A DNA stretch of 64,000 nucleotides from Lepisosteus oculatus. Lineage: Eukaryota > Chordata > Actinopteri > Semionotiformes > Lepisosteidae. Below, piece after piece: positions 3,143 to 62,400 of the stretch. The position numbers and the translations under genes were made by a program. The stretch covers positions 27,847,148 through 27,911,147 of the forward strand of contig NC_090706.1 of NCBI RefSeq assembly GCF_040954835.1, in the 5' to 3' direction. Each line of letters opens with the position of its first letter. Position 1 is the first letter of the stretch. Below the pieces are notes generated by a model that saw only the letters and a list, made by a program, of their open reading frames with translations, was not told the DNA's origin and ran no database searches.

Positions 3143-3970
3143 GAATACACCATTTGCAAGCAATGGGCACAAGGCAGGATACACCCTGTAGAGGACACCA
3201 GTCCATCACAGGGCAGACACAGACACTCACACCAAAGCCAATTTTCCCTGAAGCCAACTATAACTTGATCAAAATAACCTACCACTGTGATTCTGGACCA
3301 TGGGAGGAAACCTGCACACAAACATCAGCAGCCATATCACCCTGCAACTCACAACTAGCAACCCACTGAAGCTAAGCAGGTGTGAGCCTGGTCAGTACCT
3401 GGATGGGAGACCTCCTGGGAAAAACTAAGGTTGCTGCTGGAAGAGGTGTTAGTGGGGCCAGCAGGGGGCGCTCACCTGACGGGGACACTATACTGTAAAC
3501 AGGCGCCGTGCTTCGGATGAGACGTAAAACCGAGGTCCTGACTCTCTGTGGTCATTAAAAATCCCAGGGTGCTTCTCGAAAAGAGTAGGGGTGTAACCCC
3601 GGTGTCCTGGCCAAATTTTCAATTGGCCCTTACTAATCATGGCCTCCTAATAATCCCCCTCTATGAATTGGCTACATTACTCTGCTCTCCTCCCCACTGA
3701 TAGCTGATGTGTGGTGAGCGTTCTGGCGCACTATGGCTGCCGTCGCATCATCCAGGTGGATGCTGCACATTGGTGGTGGTGGAGGGGAGTCCCCATTACC
3801 TGTAAAGTGCTTTGAGTGGAGTGTCCAGAAAAGTGCTATATAAGTGTAAGCAATTATTATTATTATTATAACATACAGACTCCACACAGATAGCACCCAA
3901 GGTCAAGAGTTAAACCCAAGGCCCCACTGCTGCAGTGCTGCAATGGTAACCACTGTGCCAGCATGCCACT
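3143..3970 (-). repeat. TGGA-tail tRNA SINE, split by a 5S SINE
   Basis: This is a minus-strand copy of the fish tRNA-derived SINE whose 3' part reads, on the other strand, as GCACAAGGCAGG, ACACCCTG, CCAGTCCATCACAGGG. Its two halves lie at 3143-3325 and 3870-3970 and are separated by a complete 5S-derived SINE. The 5-bp sequence AACAT occurs on both sides of the insertion (3321-3325 and 3870-3874), as expected for a target-site duplication. Confidence 0.7.
3326..3869 (+). repeat. 5S rRNA-derived SINE (SINE3 type), full-length
   Basis: The head at about 3370-3425 closely matches the 5S rRNA gene (GAAGCTAAGCAGG, GCCTGGTCAGTACCTGGATG, GGAGACC). A body of about 400 bp follows, then a 3' tail ending in AAGCAATT and an ATT triplet run. 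It is inserted in a tRNA-derived SINE with flanking AACAT repeats. It is a Pol III-type non-autonomous element that depends on a LINE. It is not a functional 5S gene: the 5S region is mutated and fused to unrelated sequence. Confidence 0.8.
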
Positions 3971-24307: not shown

Positions 24308-26195
24308 CTAGTTCAAGTTCAAGTTCATTGTCATTATACTCATATACAGGTATATGGGACGACGAAATTCTATTTAGCTAGCTCTCAGACGGTAAGAAGT
24401 ACAAAAAAAAACCAACAACAATACAATTGTATAAGAAAAGAAAGACAGAGACAACAGGCAATGTGCAAAACAACAACAGTTAACAGGTTATGTGCAAAAC
24501 AACATCAGATGTGCAAAATCGTACATCAGCAAAATGAAATAAAGGATAGAAAATTAGCTTCTTGACATATGAGGTAGAGGTAGATTTCAATGTGTGTTTG
24601 AGTTTTGGTAAAGACAGAAGGCACTGTGAGGTTCATATCGTAGGTGAGAGAGGCTGGGAGTTTAATAGTCTGATAGTGCGGGGGTACCGTTTTCCAGATG
24701 GTAGAGGGTCATACAGTCTGTAGCTGGGGTGCGTGGGGTCTTTGGTGATGCTTTCTAAAGCACTGTCTGTCATAAATGTCCTGGATGGATGGGAAAGCAA
24801 CCCCAGTGATTTTCACCACCCGCTGAAGGGCTTTGCGGTCAGCAGTACTACAATTGCCATACCACACTGTGATGCAACCTGTCAGTATGGTTTCTGTAGT
24901 GCATCTGTATAAGTTAGTGAGGATCTGGGGATTAATCTTAGCCTTCTTCAACTGTCTAGGGAAGTACAGGCGCTGTTGCGCTTTCTTGATCAGACAGGTG
25001 GCGTTGAGAGACCATGGGAGGTCCTCAGTGATATGGATGCCAAGGAATTTGAACTTACTGACCCTTCAGTCCCGTTGATGTGGATAGGGGCATGTCCATT
25101 TTGCAGTTTTATGAAATCAGCGATAAGCTCCTTGGTTTTGCTGACATTGAGGGTGAAGTTGTTGTCCTCCCACCATGTTGTAAGGAGATTGACCTCCTCC
25201 TTGTATCCCTCTCATCATTGTCTGTGATCAGACCTACTATGGTGTCATCGGCAAACTTGATGATGGAGTTGGTGTTGTGTTTGGCCTTACAGTCATGGGT
25301 ATAGAGGGAGTAGAGCATTGGACTAAGCACACAACCCTGGGGGACCCAAGTGTTCAGAGTTAGTGTGCCGGAGGTGTGGTTTCCAAACCTGACAGCCTGA
25401 GGTCTGCCTGTCAGAAAGTCCCAAATCCACTTGCAGAGGGTGGTGTCAAGACCCAGTACACTGAGTTTCTTGACTAGTTTCTCTGGAATGATAGTGTTAA
25501 AAGCTGAGCTGAAGTCAATGAATAGTAGTCTTGTGTATGTGTTATTTTTATCCAGATGGGATAGGCAATGGAGATTGCTTCATCTGTGGATCTGCAGGCT
25601 CTGAGGACGTGACTGGTTATGCCGTCGGGTCCTGCAGCCTTGTGTGTGTTCACTCTTAGCAGAGATCTCCTCACCTCATCTGCAGACAGTGAGAGCAGCT
25701 GGTCAGCTGCGGCGGATGCAGCTCTGATGGCTGGTTCTGTGTTGCTGGCTTCAAACCGAGCGAAGAAGGTGTTGAGCTCGTTAGGCAGGGAGGCATCATG
25801 GGCAGGTGCACAGATGTTCTTCCTCTTGTAGTCTGTGAGGGCCTGTATATCTTGCCACATGCGCCTTGGGTCATTGGTGGTGAAGTGTTCCTCTAATTCC
25901 TGTTTGAGTGTGTTTTTGCATGTTTAACACTATTGTTTAGATTGATCCTGGCTGACCTTAGTTCTGATTTATTGCCCGATTTGAATGCTGCATCCCTTGC
26001 TTTGATTAGGATGCGGACCTCACTGTTCATCCATAGTTTCTGGTTAGGAAAAGTTCTTGTTTCTTTTGTGAGTGTAACATCATCAGCACATTTCCTGATG
26101 TAGCTAGTGACTGATGATGCATATTCCTGTATGTCGGTGTATGATCCCTGTGTGGCTGCCTCTTTAAACACATCCCAGTTCTCGTCCTGTCACGT
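24308..26195 (-). mobile_element. L2-type non-LTR retrotransposon, 5'-truncated and degraded
   Basis: Minus-strand frames contain reverse-transcriptase blocks: HKAAGPDGITSHVLRAC (about 25640) and [13 protein letters not shown] followed by [11 protein letters not shown] with the FADD catalytic motif (about 25220-25320). The C-terminal part has ITGVAFPSIQDIYDRQC. The frame is broken into several pieces. The endonuclease end is absent, so the copy is 5'-truncated at about 26195. The 3' end lies by a TTCAAGTTCAAGTTCA short repeat at 24311-24330, the microsatellite tail type of this clade. It is non-functional. Confidence 0.85.
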
Positions 26196-32644: not shown

Positions 32645-35520
32645 ATTATAGGTGTTACAATTAAAAAGGTGTTGACCAATATATTTTTAACTTTAACAAC
32701 CAGAAAAGACATTTGAATGCCTTTTGATTTCAGTTCTGTTAAAGAGTCAAGAGGATATGACCCTGATAGACATAATGCATTGACTCCAGGAGACAGTCTG
32801 TGCTGATGTGGCTCCTGTGCCCTGAGTCATTCTTCAGCAGGGCGCCTTTAACCCCAGTTCACTCCTGCCTCTTGTCACAAGCTTGATGCTATGATCACAC
32901 TGCTCTGCGGAACGTGTATGCGTTTTGTACAGCTGGACATCGCCCATGAGAAGAGGTGGGAAAGCATGGAACAGCTGCTTGTGAGCTCAGGATTATGAAA
33001 TGGTAAGGGGGAGTCAGAAATAGCATGCAGAATAAGACCAAGGACTCTGCTTCTTCCCGTTAAGAATTGTGTGCTTTTAATTGTACGCGTGTGTGCTCTG
33101 TCTCTGTGTGTGTGCTTTAGCTTGTGGGAAGTGGAGTAAACCATTGTTTAGACATTATCAACTCGATCAAATGTACTGTAAGCGCTGGAAGAAAAGTCCT
33201 TTGAAACTAACACGGAAATTTACTTCGGTATTTTTTCCCCCACAAGGAACAGTATGTTCTTGGCCCGTCACGCCCCCGCCTTCACTTTCCAGGTAAAGCC
33301 GGCCAGTCCCGTCTCGACCTGCCGGGAAGGAAGCGCGGCCCTTTCTAGCCTCGTGATCAGTTCGCGCGGAGAACTAGGGGGGGTCCGGTTCGGGCGAGGA
33401 GCGCCGGGACCGCTGCGGAATTCTCGGCTTTGAGAACTGAATTCCAAGGGTTGAGGTTTACCGACCAGCCCATGGACCTCAGTTCTGGAGCTTGGGGTTT
33501 CTAAACGACACCGCTGGGACTCACACTTCCCTTCGCGCCTTTCTGAGTTGGAAAAGTACAGGGGCTGCGTCTGAAATGCAAGTGTTGTTTTTCTTTGGTC
33601 TTCAGTCCGTGGGGAAGCACAAAAGGCGTCTTGGAGAAATTGCAGACCGTATAAAAAGGACTGGCGGTGTTAGTATGTGTCATTCTGTTGCTGTGCAGGT
33701 CGTTGCTCAGTGGATTTCAAGCTGCCGGACGATTTCAACAGACAGAATAGAACTGAACTTAATGTTCCTCCCCCACATACACCCTCTTTGCCCGCAGGCC
33801 AGCAATGGCCTAGCTTTTTGCTGTTCTGTTAGGAAACACCGTAAAACTTGGGGTGTGTAGGTGACTTCATCCTGCCCACACCACTGGATCAACCCTCAAG
33901 TTTCGAAAGGTTAGATTTATGCAGAGATCCCTTGAAGAGCAAGCTGGATCACACGGCTAGCTCCTACACCAGATGCAAGCCTTGCTAGTTTCACAGTCCC
34001 GGGGTCAAACAGCTCTCTTTGTTAACCGCTAATGAGTGCCAAGAAACGCGATATGTTCTTGCGAAGACTTCAGGAAATATTTGAAAATTATGTTAGTCTT
34101 GCCATTTAAATTAAGGTTGGAATGAAATCAGAAAGGTGGCAATGGATAGATCACCCCATTCGAACATCATTGTGTGATGCTTTACGTATAACGCAGCTGA
34201 TTTCCATTTTATATTGGCTACAAAGATAATGTTAAAACATAACACCCCCATAAACAGATCGACGCGCAATCGCCTTCAAATGTATTGGCTTCGCTGTTAA
34301 AGAGCTCCCTCTACCGTGTTCAACTGGAAATGAAAGTTTCGTCTAGCTTTGGAGACACGAGCTGTAGTTATTTTTAATCCTGTGTCCCTCTAGAAATGCT
34401 TTTAGGTAGAGAAAAATCAGTCGTTTACAGTGCTGACCCGGAGAGTGCTCACTTTGCTCAAGTAAAAGCGCAGCACGTGCCCTACCTACGCCTCGAACCC
34501 GGGACCAGCGCCCTCCCAGCCCTACCCACTACTGCACTGGCCAACGGGGCTGGCAGAGTTCTGTTTTGTTTCTGTTGTTATTTATTAAAATGTCGATATA
34601 AAATGTACTAATATAAAAGTATAACTTATACATTTTAGTTGAGTGTATGTAACTTCGCTCCCTACCAACCATTTAATTCAATATTATAGCAACCACATAG
34701 GATCGTTCGACAACGATAAATGACTGTTTTGCAATAAACATTTTTGCTCTAACTTAACATTATGCGATTGATTTCTTCTTCTTCAACCTCCAGACCTGAC
34801 TTATGGTTTAAGATGTTTTTTTGAAAAACCGTTCGGGGCATTCAGCCTCTGTTGTACTCGGTTAACTATTGATACTGTGCTAACAGCGTTTGATTTATGC
34901 TTTCAACATTCACAACTTTTTGGATTTAGAAATATTTAATTTTACTCGAAATATAATTTATAGGAAATTAGCCGAGTGTTTAGACTACGTCAGTCCAGGC
35001 AGGTTTGCTAAAACATGAACTTCGCAGCCGTCTTAAAATTCAAACTTTTCTATATATAAAAATATAATATAGGTCAGCGCTACAGCAGCAAAATATAATA
35101 CAATAGTATACAATAAACTATATAGGTCCGTGCAGTAATATTGTTCTAGTATAATTTGTAATAAGTAGGCTACAGGTTGTACAATAGTAGTTACTTAATA
35201 AATCAAGTTAAGAAATATTACGTTTTACAGAGGAAAATTTAAGATTTTTTTTCACAAATACTTCAAAATAATCATTGAGACTGTGAATCTCAGTCAGATT
35301 ATGGTACAGAGAAATCTGATTCTTAACGTGCTCTCACGACTGAATCAGTCAGGGACGAGAAGGTGGGCAGACTTGAACCAGATTTTTTTTTCGCCATTTT
35401 GAAACGGCATTTAAATAGTTGAGACAGGCAGAACATCACCACATATTTGCAATCGTCCACTCCCCTCCATCTGCACGCTAATTCGGTAACAAACGGCAGC
35501 AGGGGTTTCGGGAGAGCTCG
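32645..35520. other. non-coding, includes a CpG-rich patch at 33240-33460
   Basis: Around 33240-33460 the sequence becomes GC- and CpG-rich (for example GTTCGCGCGGAG and GGTCCGGTTCGGGCGAGG) and could be a promoter or 5' UTR exon. No coding exon is recognised. A tRNA-like B-box fragment (CGCCTCGAACCCGGGACC) lies near 34490. Confidence 0.35.
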
Positions 35521-52705: not shown

Positions 52706-52710
52706 AATAA

Positions 52711-53244
52711 TGTAACGCAACGGGGGCTCAGGCGGGCGCCCTTGCCGCATTAGGTCGGCCCCTGCACCGTCCGGGGCTCGAACCCGGGACTTCCGCGTCT
52801 CTCTGCAGCGACCTAGCCCCGTGAGCCAAAGAGAGATCTCTCTACAGCCCAGTAGCTGTAGTCCTGCTATCACAGGGAAGGGCGGTGACGTCACCCGCTC
52901 TGGTACGCCGGCTCTTACACAGTGCCTGTCGGCCGTAAGCGTTACACTCTCCCCCGCTTAAATCGCCGTCCCCGGCGAAGGGCTATCCCGCCCCGCTTCT
53001 GACACCAATGTAACGCAACGGGGGCTCAGGCGGGCGCCCTTGCCGCATTAGGTCGGCCCCTGCACCGTCCGGGGCTCGAACCCGGGACTTCCGCGTCTCT
53101 CTGCAGCGACCTAGCCCCGTGAGCCAAAGAGAGATCTCTCTACAGCCCAGTAGCTGTGGTCCTGCTATCACAGGGAAGGGCGGTGACGTCACCCGCTCTG
53201 GTACGCCGGCTCTTACACAGTGCCTGTCGGCCGTAAGCGTTACA
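52711..53244 (-). mobile_element. TRIM-like mini LTR retrotransposon with tRNA-like promoter in its LTRs
   Basis: Two direct repeats, 52711-52946 and 53009-53244, are each 236 bp and differ at one base (A at 52860, G at 53158). Each starts TGTAACGC and ends GCGTTACA. The 62 bp between them contain, read on the minus strand, TGGTGTCAGAAGCGGGG beginning one base after the first LTR, which fits a primer-binding site for the 3' end of tRNA-Leu. A purine tract (GCGGGGGAGAG) stands directly before the second LTR. There is no coding capacity. Within each repeat the minus strand carries a B box (GGTTCGAGCCC) in a perfect 5-bp T-arm-like stem, and an A-box-like TGGCTCACGGGG about 44 bp before it, the usual tRNA spacing. 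It sits in the triplet tail of the adjacent 5S SINE. Confidence 0.75.
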
Positions 53245-59030: not shown

Positions 59031-59045
59031 TTGTTCATCCTGGCG

Positions 59046-59415
59046 GAGTTGGGGTGCAGTGGGGTGATGAGCTGGTGTCCATCCCGGAGGAGCTGGGGTG
59101 CAGTGGGGTGCTGAGCTGGTGTCCATCCCGGAGGAGCTGGGGTGCAGTGGGGTGCTGAGCTGGTGTCCATCCTGGGGGAGCTGGGGTGCAGTGGGATGCT
59201 GAGCTGGAGTTCATCCCGGAGGAGCTGGGGTGCAGTGGGGTGCTGAGCTGGTGTCCATCCCGGAGGAGCTGGGGTGCAGTGGGGTGCTGAGCTGGTGTCC
59301 ATCCTGGGGGAGCTGGGGTGCAGTGGGATGCTGAGCTGGAGTTCATCCTGGCTGAGTTGGGGTGCAGTGGGGGTGATGGGCTGGTGTTCATCCTGGGAGA
59401 GTTGGGGTGCAATGG
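59046..59415. repeat. 44-bp minisatellite, about 8.5 copies, with 132-bp higher-order period
   Basis: The unit is 44 bp (it begins GAGCTGGGGTGCAGTGGGG and continues GCTGAGCTGGTGTCCATCCC, then GGAG). Every third unit carries shared variants (TGGGATGCTGAGCTGGAGTT), giving a 132-bp higher-order repeat. Because 132 is divisible by three, two minus-strand frames of about 130 codons stay open. These are by-products, not genes. Confidence 0.9.
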
Positions 59416-59419
59416 TGTG

Positions 59420-62400
59420 ATGAGCTGGCATTAATCCTAAAATAGATCTGTGAGGTGGCCAGGCAGCTTGTTTCAGACACTCCCATGGTTTTTGGTGTAA
59501 ATTATTCCTTTTAGTTTCATTCCTCCTAAATTCAGTCTCTGTCCCAGTGTTCTTGTGTCACTGCAAAGCATGAAGTAATCCTTTGTGTTGACATTGTGAA
59601 TATCTCTGAGGATTTTGAAAACTTGCAGTTTCCTTTGTTCAAGCCCCGAAAGATTGGACTCCAGGTCACCTCTTAAAATCTCAATGAATCAGTCCTGTAA
59701 ATCACCTGCAGCAAATCTAAAGGAGGTTTCCAAGATGTATTGGAATTGCTCTGCCTCTTACTGCTGCCAAGTCCTTAAGTGAGCAGTGTGGAGATAAGAT
59801 TCCTAGTGGGCAATTACTTAGGGAAATGGTCGCCTGGGGTTTCTCTTGGAATGCTGTACAGTATATCCTTTTATTAGCCTTGCCAATGAAAATGTGACAG
59901 AACATAATTAACACACCTCACACGTGTTATTTATTGTAAAAATGGTGTGGAAGTCGGGGCCTGTCATGAACTTCGTTATTTTGGCTGGAGTGCTGGATTC
60001 CTTGGGTCATTTAATTGGCTCTTTGCCTGGCTTGAAATCATTCATTGCTTGTGCAATCACTCCATTAGCTGCTCGGGGAACGGCCTCCAACTTTTATGAG
60101 GCTGTGTGAGGTGTGGAGATCTTTGACCGTCTCTCCACTGGCTTGTGCCTTTCATTTGCTGTTTCTCCAAATAAAATATTTTTTTTGACATGACCTCTTG
60201 CCTTCAGCCTTCCTGTGAGCCACAATGGGTCAGGGGCAGAGTCTAGGGGTGACCAGCCCTGGTCCAGAGTGAACTGGTTCAATTAAGGGTGTTGATATTT
60301 ATAACTAAACAAATCACCTGCTTCAGTTTAACATTGGCCTGTTAAACCTGTTGGCCATCCCTGGTCTTTACCTCTCAGAACTGGTCATTGCTGCTTATTC
60401 TCAGGTCAGCTTTTCTATTCTAAGCTTCATTTGTTTTGCAAATAGGGGTCCTTTTCTCCATTTCTACACCCTTATTCCTTCTAGACGTGCACACAAACCA
60501 CTAACCAAGTCAGCTGAAATATTCATATGGATGATAAGCATTGTCCATTAACTGCCTTTGCATTATTAAAAGGCTTCATTTGGCCATATCCTGAGTTTTA
60601 TAACCTCAGATGATTATCAGAGAGAAGAGGAGGATTTGTTCTGTAGTCCTGGCTGGGTACATTTGGAGTGGTGAAATTTCACTTGGAAACACATGACATT
60701 TGTCACTGTGTCCCAGAACATATCTGATGGTTATGTGTATCTTTCCATCCCCTAGAACTCTAGACTGATGAGCCATTTCCCAAAGCATCTCGCTGTTCTG
60801 TGTAGCTTGGAGCGACACAGCTATTACATCAGCTAGCTATCTGTGGGGGAAGATATGAAACGCAGGCAAAGCTAGTTGAGGTTGCAGATTGCCGAGTTTA
60901 ATGATACCAATAGCACATAATAACCAGTGATTGATGCCTCCTTCCAAAATGAAACTGTCGCTTTTCTGTGCGTGGCAGATTTGTCTCCCGACCAGCGAGG
61001 ACTGAGGAGAGGCTCTTGCGGATGTGGTTCTAAATACTCTCGCTTGGTTCGTTTGCACGTCCGTACATACCTTTTGGTTTTACTTCTTCATTCCTGTAGC
61101 GATGGGGTCTGCTAGAACCTTTTATTGTCGAGCACCCTGCCCCTGTGTTAGGAGCTGCTCATTTTTAATACGCAATTCCTCTCCATGCTGGTCCTGTGTG
61201 TCGCTCCTCCACCCCCCCTCCCCCTCCTGCCCCTCGAAGGCCTGCGGAGCTGGCGAGCCGCGCATCCGTCTGACCTGCTTTGGAAAACATTGCAGTCCAG
61301 CGCCGCCTGCCAGCGCCCCATTGATCGCGACCCCCACACGCTCAGCGCTGCAATCAATACCCGCCATCAGCGGCATGTGTATAAAAAGAGATCAATAGGG
61401 GGGAGGGGCTAAGTGAGCATCAGGCATGAGGCTGCCGAGGTGAGGCAGGGAGGTACAGCACGGAGGAGAACACCGGTCTGGGCAAGGGGCTGGCACTGCT
61501 GTCTCCCAGACCACAGCTGACAGGCTCGGGCTCTGTTAGAGCTCCCGATTCATTTAATTCAAAGTGCTGGCAGGTCAAACAGTGGGGTATGTCCTACTGC
61601 TTGTTCACCCACACTGCAAATCTGTCACGCGTTAGGCTGGGCTTGGATGTCCAATGGGGCCGATGTTAGGAGCTGAGTTTGGGGTTAGGGTTTGGGTTAG
61701 TTGGACTTTGGGTTAATGCCGGAAAGTGGGATTCCCATAAAGAAAAGGGCAACGTGTAAAAGCTTTTAAAAGCTTTCATAGTCTCTCTGTTTGTTTTCTC
61801 TGTAAATTTCTCGGTCTAAACTGAGAAGTAAAGCGCAGTGTATTGACAGACAGAAAGACCTTCTCCATTACACAAGACAACATCGGCATGAATTGCATTG
61901 AAACTTATCTCTGCCTTGCCAGCAAAAAGGAATATTTTTTGACAGGATGCAGATTTATTTAGGCTCATCTTATTATATTTCGGACTTCCTGTCTTGGGGA
62001 TGTTCCTTCCAGGAGATCACTGGTCATTCTCGCTGTGCAGTGGTTGCATTCCGAATTCCGAGTCTCCTTGTGCGTGGAGCTCTCTCGATTCGGAGCTCGG
62101 TGACGCAGGCACGCTTTTTGTGTTTGTCAATCCGCGCCGACTGATCTGCAGAGTCGGATTTTTGAGAAGGCGACAGAGCCCCCGCTTCAGACATTAATAA
62201 AACATCAAACAGGCCTGTTCTGTCACACCGAGCAGACTCACCATGCCTGCAGCTACTGTACTGTAGGTATCCTGCAAGTTCAGGAGACCGGAGCAGCTGA
62301 AAGAACATCTGCAGTCACTTCAGCGTTAAAATTCAAATGTTCCTCTCAGTCTATTAAAGCAGGCTGGCACACTGCTGTGATAAACTAATTACGGTAATTG

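Follow-up and report, generated by a model that had tools for sequence, protein, structure and literature searches.

A stretch of 64,000 nucleotides from the gar Lepisosteus oculatus (NCBI RefSeq assembly GCF_040954835.1, contig NC_090706.1, positions 27,847,148 to 27,911,147; hereafter the window) contains a terminal-repeat retrotransposon in miniature (TRIM) that is a member of a mobile multicopy family, and copies of this TRIM fused to a Ty3/Gypsy element point to the Gypsy family as the engine that moves it. The observations comprise the structure and copy number of the element, its target site duplications (TSDs), a primer-binding site (PBS) and a long terminal repeat (LTR) terminus shared with the Gypsy family, fusions that were inserted as one unit, and a palindromic arrangement at about a quarter of the sampled loci, mostly within a single TSD. 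Taken jointly, they are very probably best explained by a TRIM whose transcription would start under the control of A and B boxes in the LTR, whose RNA would be packaged, primed, copied and integrated by way of the Gypsy partner, and whose palindromic copies would be products of reverse transcription.

Upon re-reading of the window, the two direct terminal repeats of 236 bp with TG...CA ends, their single difference (A/G at 52860/53158), the intervening 62 bp and the outer coordinates were found exactly as given in a preliminary description made from the sequence alone (Table 1). The LTR termini, TGTAACGC and GCGTTACA, form an exact 8-bp inverted repeat, and the whole element, which is shorter than 1 kb, has no coding capacity. 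A PBS and a polypurine tract (PPT) border the internal region on the minus strand; the PBS would be of the tRNA-Leu type, as the preliminary description had it.

Table 1. Positions of the TRIM, its parts and its target duplications within the window
Feature	Position	Strand
Target duplication, left, ATAA; ambiguous (within an ATA repeat)	52707..52710	not applicable
Complete TRIM, 5′ LTR + 62 bp + 3′ LTR, 534 bp	52711..53244	(-), the sense strand
3′ LTR, 236 bp, one base unlike the 5′ LTR	52711..52946	(-)
T-arm-like stem and B box, 3′ LTR	52771..52787	(-)
A box, 3′ LTR	52817..52828	(-)
Internal region, 62 bp, kept in copies	52947..53008	(-)
PPT GCGGGGGAGAG, last internal bases	52947..52957	(-)
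PBS TTGGTGTCAGAAGCGGG, first internal bases; the same 17 bases lie between TRIM LTR and gag in L059	52992..53008	(-)
5′ LTR, 236 bp, starts TGTAACGC, ends GCGTTACA	53009..53244	(-)
T-arm-like stem (LTR 160-176), 5′ LTR, enclosing B box GGTTCGAGCCC at 53072-53082 (LTR 163-173)	53069..53085	(-)
A box TGGCTCACGGGG, 5′ LTR (LTR 119-130)	53115..53126	(-)
Palindrome AGAGAGATCTCTCT (LTR 104-117): putative RNA 5′ end and R start, centre of many palindromic insertions	53128..53141	(-)
cAMP-response element (CRE) TGACGTCA in U3 (LTR 54-61), followed by CCGCCC	53184..53191	(-)
Target duplication, right, ATAA	53245..53248	not applicable

Copies, target duplications and conservation

A pattern consisting of the LTR end and the PBS, with up to two mismatches allowed so that a few Gypsy ends may be included, yielded 1,089 matches in the 1.2-Gb assembly to which the window belongs and none in a reversed control, and a pattern of the PPT and the LTR start yielded 748 matches, again with none in the control. 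The first 100 of the 1,089 places gave 90 loci (L009-L098), of which 85 were left after removal of the duplicates L014, L017, L018, L034 and L036; because the sampling pattern needs an LTR end next to a PBS, the sample holds no solo LTRs. The locus of L017 and L018 (C1:22.26 Mb, the same as L007) lies outside the 85, and L005 (inverted) and L006 were not counted; L006 and L007 are direct arrays. Eighty-seven clusters were distinguished: 23 inverted clusters and, among the direct ones, 50 that have two LTR matches (truncated in some cases), 10 that have three and 4 that have a single match.

Perfect 4-bp TSDs flank 67 of the 73 full-ended sampled copies (48 of 51 direct and 19 of 22 inverted), as against a mean of 16 and a maximum of 26 under permutation, and the duplicated sequence is RTAY in 56 of the 67. 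The remaining six comprise two fusions (L059 and L033), three copies that match at 3 of the 4 bases (L068, L080 and L082) and L042. Duplications of 5 bp, which the preliminary description had proposed to look for, were seen in 0 of the 73 copies, L028 also matching at 6 bp within an AT run. The TSDs around copies rule out a simple tandem repeat and, together with the pattern matches, bear out the earlier proposal of a mobile family built on the TRIM plan. Copies are confined neither to tandem arrays nor to single units without the PBS-PPT spacer, and the spacer is conserved; arrays do exist, with a period of 298 bp in the longer ones. About a dozen TRIM units stand in an array at C5:59391078-59394904 (G000), which ends in an inverted junction at LTR 104.

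Compared with the window copy, the PBS and PPT show non-CpG differences at 0.7% (99 spacers), U3 at 3.6% and U5 at 8.3% (148 LTRs). The two LTRs of 42 direct copies diverge by a median of 2.1%, ten pairs being identical, and this low divergence indicates that the family moved recently.

Fusions with a Ty3/Gypsy family

The clearest fusion is L009 (C1:1.03 Mb), in which, on the TRIM minus strand, an LTR, the spacer and U5 positions 236-214 (the last 23 bases) continue without a gap into the RNaseH-integrase region and 3′ LTR of a Gypsy element. The coding part matches the Pfam families RT_RNaseH (4e-36) and rve (3e-15), its best solved relative is Ty3, and the Gypsy 3′ LTR occupies 353 bp (C1:1031207-1031559). 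ATAT stands at both outer ends of the composite, and when the flanks were joined with one ATAT the resulting empty site was matched across the join in all 40 scored copies of the target repeat (of 464 candidates), 36 over query positions 1-240 and four over 1-239 or 3-240. The ATAT on both sides and the unbroken empty site thus indicate that the TRIM and Gypsy parts of L009 entered as one molecule. The target itself (L009 1-1215; L099 after 710) is an interspersed repeat that resembles an endogenous retrovirus by eye.

Two further fusions were read in sequence. L033 (C1:57.85 Mb) consists of an inverted TRIM followed by TRIM RU5, the PBS and gag; its left flank is GTAC, and GTAC recurs 5 kb further right, where it follows the Gypsy LTR end at C1:57859260-57859278. 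L059 (C3:1.91 Mb) has a TRIM LTR with ATAT on its left, then TTGGTGTCAGAAGCGGG and frames that look by eye like gag and protease, its far end being unseen; the Pfam matches of these frames are zinc knuckles below the cut-off (E 0.05 and 0.07), and the gag is ascribed to the same Gypsy family because its genome matches adjoin those of the L009 part. Three more loci were recognised by coordinates: at C13:30.67 Mb a gag match lies 16 bp past a TRIM LTR, which is the length of the PBS omitted from the query, and at C11:5.43 Mb and C14:38.73 Mb a palindrome centre lies at an L033-like distance from Gypsy parts. Twelve more such centres occur on smaller contigs, where the LTR ends shown are followed by ATAT (the pattern admits RTAY only), the pairing of at least 14 of 50 centres with Gypsy parts being drawn from 50 of 80 centres, 59 of 71 LTR ends, 21 of 40 gag matches and 15 of 40 RNaseH-integrase matches. 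These centres probably represent a single TRIM-Gypsy fusion amplified with its surroundings, perhaps as part of a satellite or segmental array. The smaller contigs C35, C76, C277, C283, C326 and C380 (G000) hold numerous Gypsy LTR ends whose next bases are ATAT, 12 of them at the distance expected from a TRIM palindrome centre.

From the coordinates of its parts, the Gypsy family would be about 5.4 kb long. Its LTR end followed by TTGGTGTCAG occurs in 14 exact copies (control 0), 10 of which have another LTR end with RTAY 5.0-5.5 kb downstream, and an RNaseH-integrase match lies about 2.6 kb beyond gag for 15 of the 30 gag matches compared; these pairings were drawn from 30 of 40 gag, 32 of 40 RNaseH-integrase and 12 of 71 LTR-end matches. 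The preliminary description had suggested a search for an autonomous partner with the same LTR; the PBS and the first 8 LTR bases are common to the TRIM and this family, and beyond these bases the LTRs are unrelated, as judged from the one Gypsy LTR read, which led to rejection of the TRIM as a deletion derivative of the Gypsy element. This dissimilarity weighs against a partnership. With regard to target preference, a pattern restricted to RTAY gave 71 Gypsy LTR ends followed by RTAY, and those on smaller contigs may stem from one amplified insertion. The Gypsy PPT read in L099 differs from that of the TRIM, and no PPT and LTR-start match was seen by eye near Gypsy copies in the first 100 of the 748 places.

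The possibility that the fusions arose later, by genomic deletion or by nesting of one insertion in another, and that Gypsy is no partner at all, draws on the abundance of the family, for which 673 and 620 first-look candidates were found (of 40 scored per search, 37 and 40 are at least 99% like the query), so that chance neighbours exist. Against this stand the single 4-bp TSDs that surround the whole composite at L009 (ATAT) and L033 (GTAC), the unbroken empty site of L009, and the position of the joins, which coincides with the shared PBS in L059 and L033 and, judged by coordinates, in C13; we regard this explanation as extremely improbable. The shared terminus and PBS and the joint products that went in as one unit (L009 and L033) instead point, at the level of sequence, to the Gypsy family as the partner of the TRIM.

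Under such a partnership, the TRIM RNA would be packaged together with Gypsy RNA, primed at the shared PBS and copied by the Gypsy enzyme, and the Gypsy integrase would recognise the shared TGTAACGC terminus and make 4-bp duplications, mostly of RTAY. The PBS junctions of L059 and L033, and of C13 by coordinates, may have arisen during second-strand transfer, when TRIM plus-strand strong-stop DNA would pass to a Gypsy minus strand.

Palindromic insertions, promoter-like motifs and the putative RNA start

In 23 of the 85 sampled loci the element strand reverses inside the copy. The usual form lacks U3 at its centre, and 19 of the 22 full-ended palindromes are bounded by U5 at either extremity. 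In 17 of the 23, one or both arms, as positioned by BLAST ends, terminate within LTR 96-112 (binomial 1e-10 against uniform ends). The palindrome-centred form occurs 80 times genome-wide with at most one mismatch. Judged from these arm ends, the RNA would begin at about LTR 104-109, which is 10-15 bases before the A box. At subfamily-diagnostic sites, which are linked so that the comparisons are not independent, the arms differ in 61 of 131 comparisons, taken from 16 of the 23 palindromes. The corresponding figure for 42 direct LTR pairs over that region is 67 of 378, and 23 of these pairs likewise have a diagnostic difference; at other sites the arms differ at 117 of 1,862 (53 of the 117 coming from the poorly aligned L030) as against 185 of 5,208. 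The frequent diagnostic differences imply that two different templates were often used. Snap-back of the same molecule was rejected as the only source of palindromes, since 12 of the 16 examined show at least two diagnostic arm differences; L013, L015, L074 and L098, with zero such differences, are compatible with it.

Such insertions would form when minus-strand cDNA reaches the 5′ end of the RNA and its 3′ end primes on another minus strand. L009 would be an event of the same kind, the second template being a Gypsy strand; its switch point, however, is at LTR 214. The resulting U5-U5 product would be usable by the integrase because TGTAACGC and GCGTTACA make both TRIM ends alike. Whether palindromic insertion is a regular second route, in which cDNA at the 5′ end of an RNA polymerase III (Pol III) transcript primes on a TRIM or Gypsy minus strand and integrates by its U5-U5 ends, with an LTR that has its own CRE at -50, unlike short interspersed elements (SINEs), is a more tentative matter, and we place it slightly short of an even chance. 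In the uncounted L005 (C3:55.26 Mb), near positions 1737-1925, the spacer PPT leads straight to LTR 105 and U3 is skipped, which is another junction at the putative R start.

Several observations weigh against priming at an RNA end. The cluster of arm ends sits on the 14-bp palindrome AGAGAGATCTCTCT, which could itself be a fold-back hotspot, and among the cases not centred on it, 8 of 14 have an arm end at LTR 96-112 (binomial 2e-4); in 6 of the 23 neither arm terminates in that interval. Priming at the RNA end cannot by itself account for L042, with a U3-U3 junction at LTR 68, or L084 and L098, which also have a U3-U3 inversion near the same place. If the palindromes arose instead from DNA events after insertion, such as fold-back at AGAGAGATCTCTCT or inversion by recombination, or from assembly errors, the many centres on the 14-bp palindrome would be accounted for, as would L084 and L098, which look like inversions of the segment between two palindromes. 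This origin is nevertheless improbable: the full-ended inverted copies have perfect 4-bp TSDs as often as stated above (19 of 22), U5 on both outer sides would not be produced by an inversion inside an LTR-spacer-LTR copy, and the arms differ at diagnostic sites more often than do the LTRs of direct pairs.

The A box, B box and perfect T-arm-like stem reported in the preliminary description were found at tRNA spacing, with box starts 44 bp apart and a stem of 5 bp. With consensus sequences for the two boxes and at most one mismatch per box, the two LTRs are the only matches in the window when the stem is also required, and no match lies in the 415,102 bases of flanking sequence, a figure that covers both strands. 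Both boxes lie within one mismatch in 170 of 186 LTR copies, 75 of which also have the perfect stem. Of 148 full LTRs, 129 retain an intact CRE, which would lie at -51/-44 for an RNA that starts at LTR 105. The sense strand of the window copy contains no TTTT, nor does that of 40 of 42 complete copies, the first TTTT standing at a median of 67.5 bases into the 3′ flank; a Pol III transcript of most copies would consequently take in the full second LTR.

These motifs and the putative start fit Pol III transcription, as far as sequence can indicate it. Pol III would start at about LTR 104-109 as set by the A and B boxes, probably assisted by the CRE about 50 bases upstream in U3, and the RNA would run through the second LTR into the flank. 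Contrary evidence comes from the boxes, which show non-CpG differences of 6.9% (A box) and 5.6% (T-arm) against 3.6% in U3, so that conservation alone is no proof of their use; from the CpG of the CRE, which has decayed like other CpGs (8.8%); from TTTT inside 2 of the 42 complete copies; and from the lack of any whole-tRNA likeness in ARAGORN or, at E<=5, in Rfam, searches that also rule out a tRNA gene or whole tRNA at this site. With the same TRIM and the same Gypsy partner, the RNA may alternatively be made by RNA polymerase II (Pol II), with the boxes as a relic of a SINE in an ancestral LTR. We consider this unlikely, albeit with appreciable weight, given the unremarkable conservation of the boxes and the missing whole-tRNA match. 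CREs and GC boxes are found in Pol II promoters too. Pol III use by elements of the same plan is, moreover, described as unvalidated (Kojima, 2024; PMC10886601). Weighing against Pol II are the boxes kept in 170 of 186 LTR copies, a putative RNA 5′ end at the stated 10-15 bases before the A box, the lack by eye of a TATA 25-30 bases upstream of that start, and a CRE position that, with a start at LTR 105, would equal that in the EBER and 4.5SH genes (-51/-44; -50/-43 in 7SL-1), according to the promoter comparisons in PMC7279448.

Relation to known elements and other features of the window

The preliminary description had proposed a tRNA-based analogue, in a fish, of the plant TRIM Cassandra; the boxes agree with it, no whole-tRNA match was found, and the plan is already published, fishes included, under the name Helenus (TRIMp3; Kojima, 2024; PMC10886601). 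Helenus elements are TRIMs with tRNA-like A and B boxes in the LTR and a PBS and PPT in between, were reported in several fishes (for example LTR-11_DR of zebrafish, with tandem arrays and thousands of LTRs), have 4-bp TSDs in animals and PBS types that in vertebrates include tRNA-Leu, and were assigned a Gypsy partner in animals from PBS similarity (PMC10886601). The gar TRIM shares the LTR boxes, the PBS and PPT, the TSD length and the arrays, and is tRNA-derived at the level of the boxes only. Since the plan is already published, the gar TRIM is not a new kind; judged by its anatomy, it would be one more family of the Helenus type, which may already have a name. What goes beyond the Helenus paper is the partner fusions, the palindromic loci and the estimation of a start site from arm ends; the words palindrom, inverted, chimer and template switch are absent from its main text.

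Cassandra, in the passages of PMC10886601 that describe it, likewise has a Pol III promoter in a TRIM LTR and differs in its 5S-type promoter, its occurrence in plants and the lack of any autonomous partner indicated there. In taeniid cestodes, ta-TRIM and its candidate partner lennie share identical first 8 LTR bases, the same tRNA-Leu PBS and the TSD length, and the portion of PMC4558846 consulted describes no fusions and contains 'inverted' and 'chimer' 0 times; relative to that portion, the evidence for the gar partner exceeds the argument from matching termini. The template-switch complexes of Triticeae (Sabot and Schulman, 2007; PMC1950507) are also TSD-flanked composites, but they are direct three-LTR dimers, two in about 7 Mb, and are neither palindromic nor TRIM-partner fusions. 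The 7SL, EBER and 4.5SH genes, as treated in the sections of PMC7279448 on their promoters, have a type 2 Pol III promoter, a CRE near -50 and, upstream of the CRE, a GC box; they are RNA genes and not LTR elements, the GC box of the gar TRIM lies just downstream of the CRE, and the SINE copies covered there lack the -50 CRE that the gar TRIM carries in U3. For bivalve TRIMs, the corresponding part of PMC6934838 reports tandem copies, solo repeats, inverted repeats within the spacer and no partner found. Searches of open PMC papers for inverted or palindromic integrated LTR or TRIM copies and for fusions with a partner, judged mostly by title and abstract opening, brought up no recognisable report of palindromic TRIM insertions or of a TRIM fused to its partner.

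In the literature compared, the engine of a TRIM has so far been argued from a few shared terminal bases and the PBS, and the fused molecules in the gar genome point to it. The palindromes seem to preserve a natural record of aberrant reverse transcription, and because they suggest an RNA start independently of RNA data, they make the Pol III claim for Helenus directly testable. If palindromic insertion is a regular second route, fossils in the genome would reveal where the RNA of a Pol III LTR element begins and show the element in the act of using its helper.

Elsewhere in the window, a mir-146 microRNA precursor (65.9 bits) lies at 33416-33504 on the (+) strand, and a 5S rRNA-like sequence (55 bits), which may be a gene, a pseudogene or a 5S-derived SINE, at 3324-3442 (+). 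Open frames at 24709-25923 (-) resemble by eye a fragment of the reverse transcriptase of a long interspersed element (LINE), and a minisatellite of nine 44-bp copies occupies 59032-59428.
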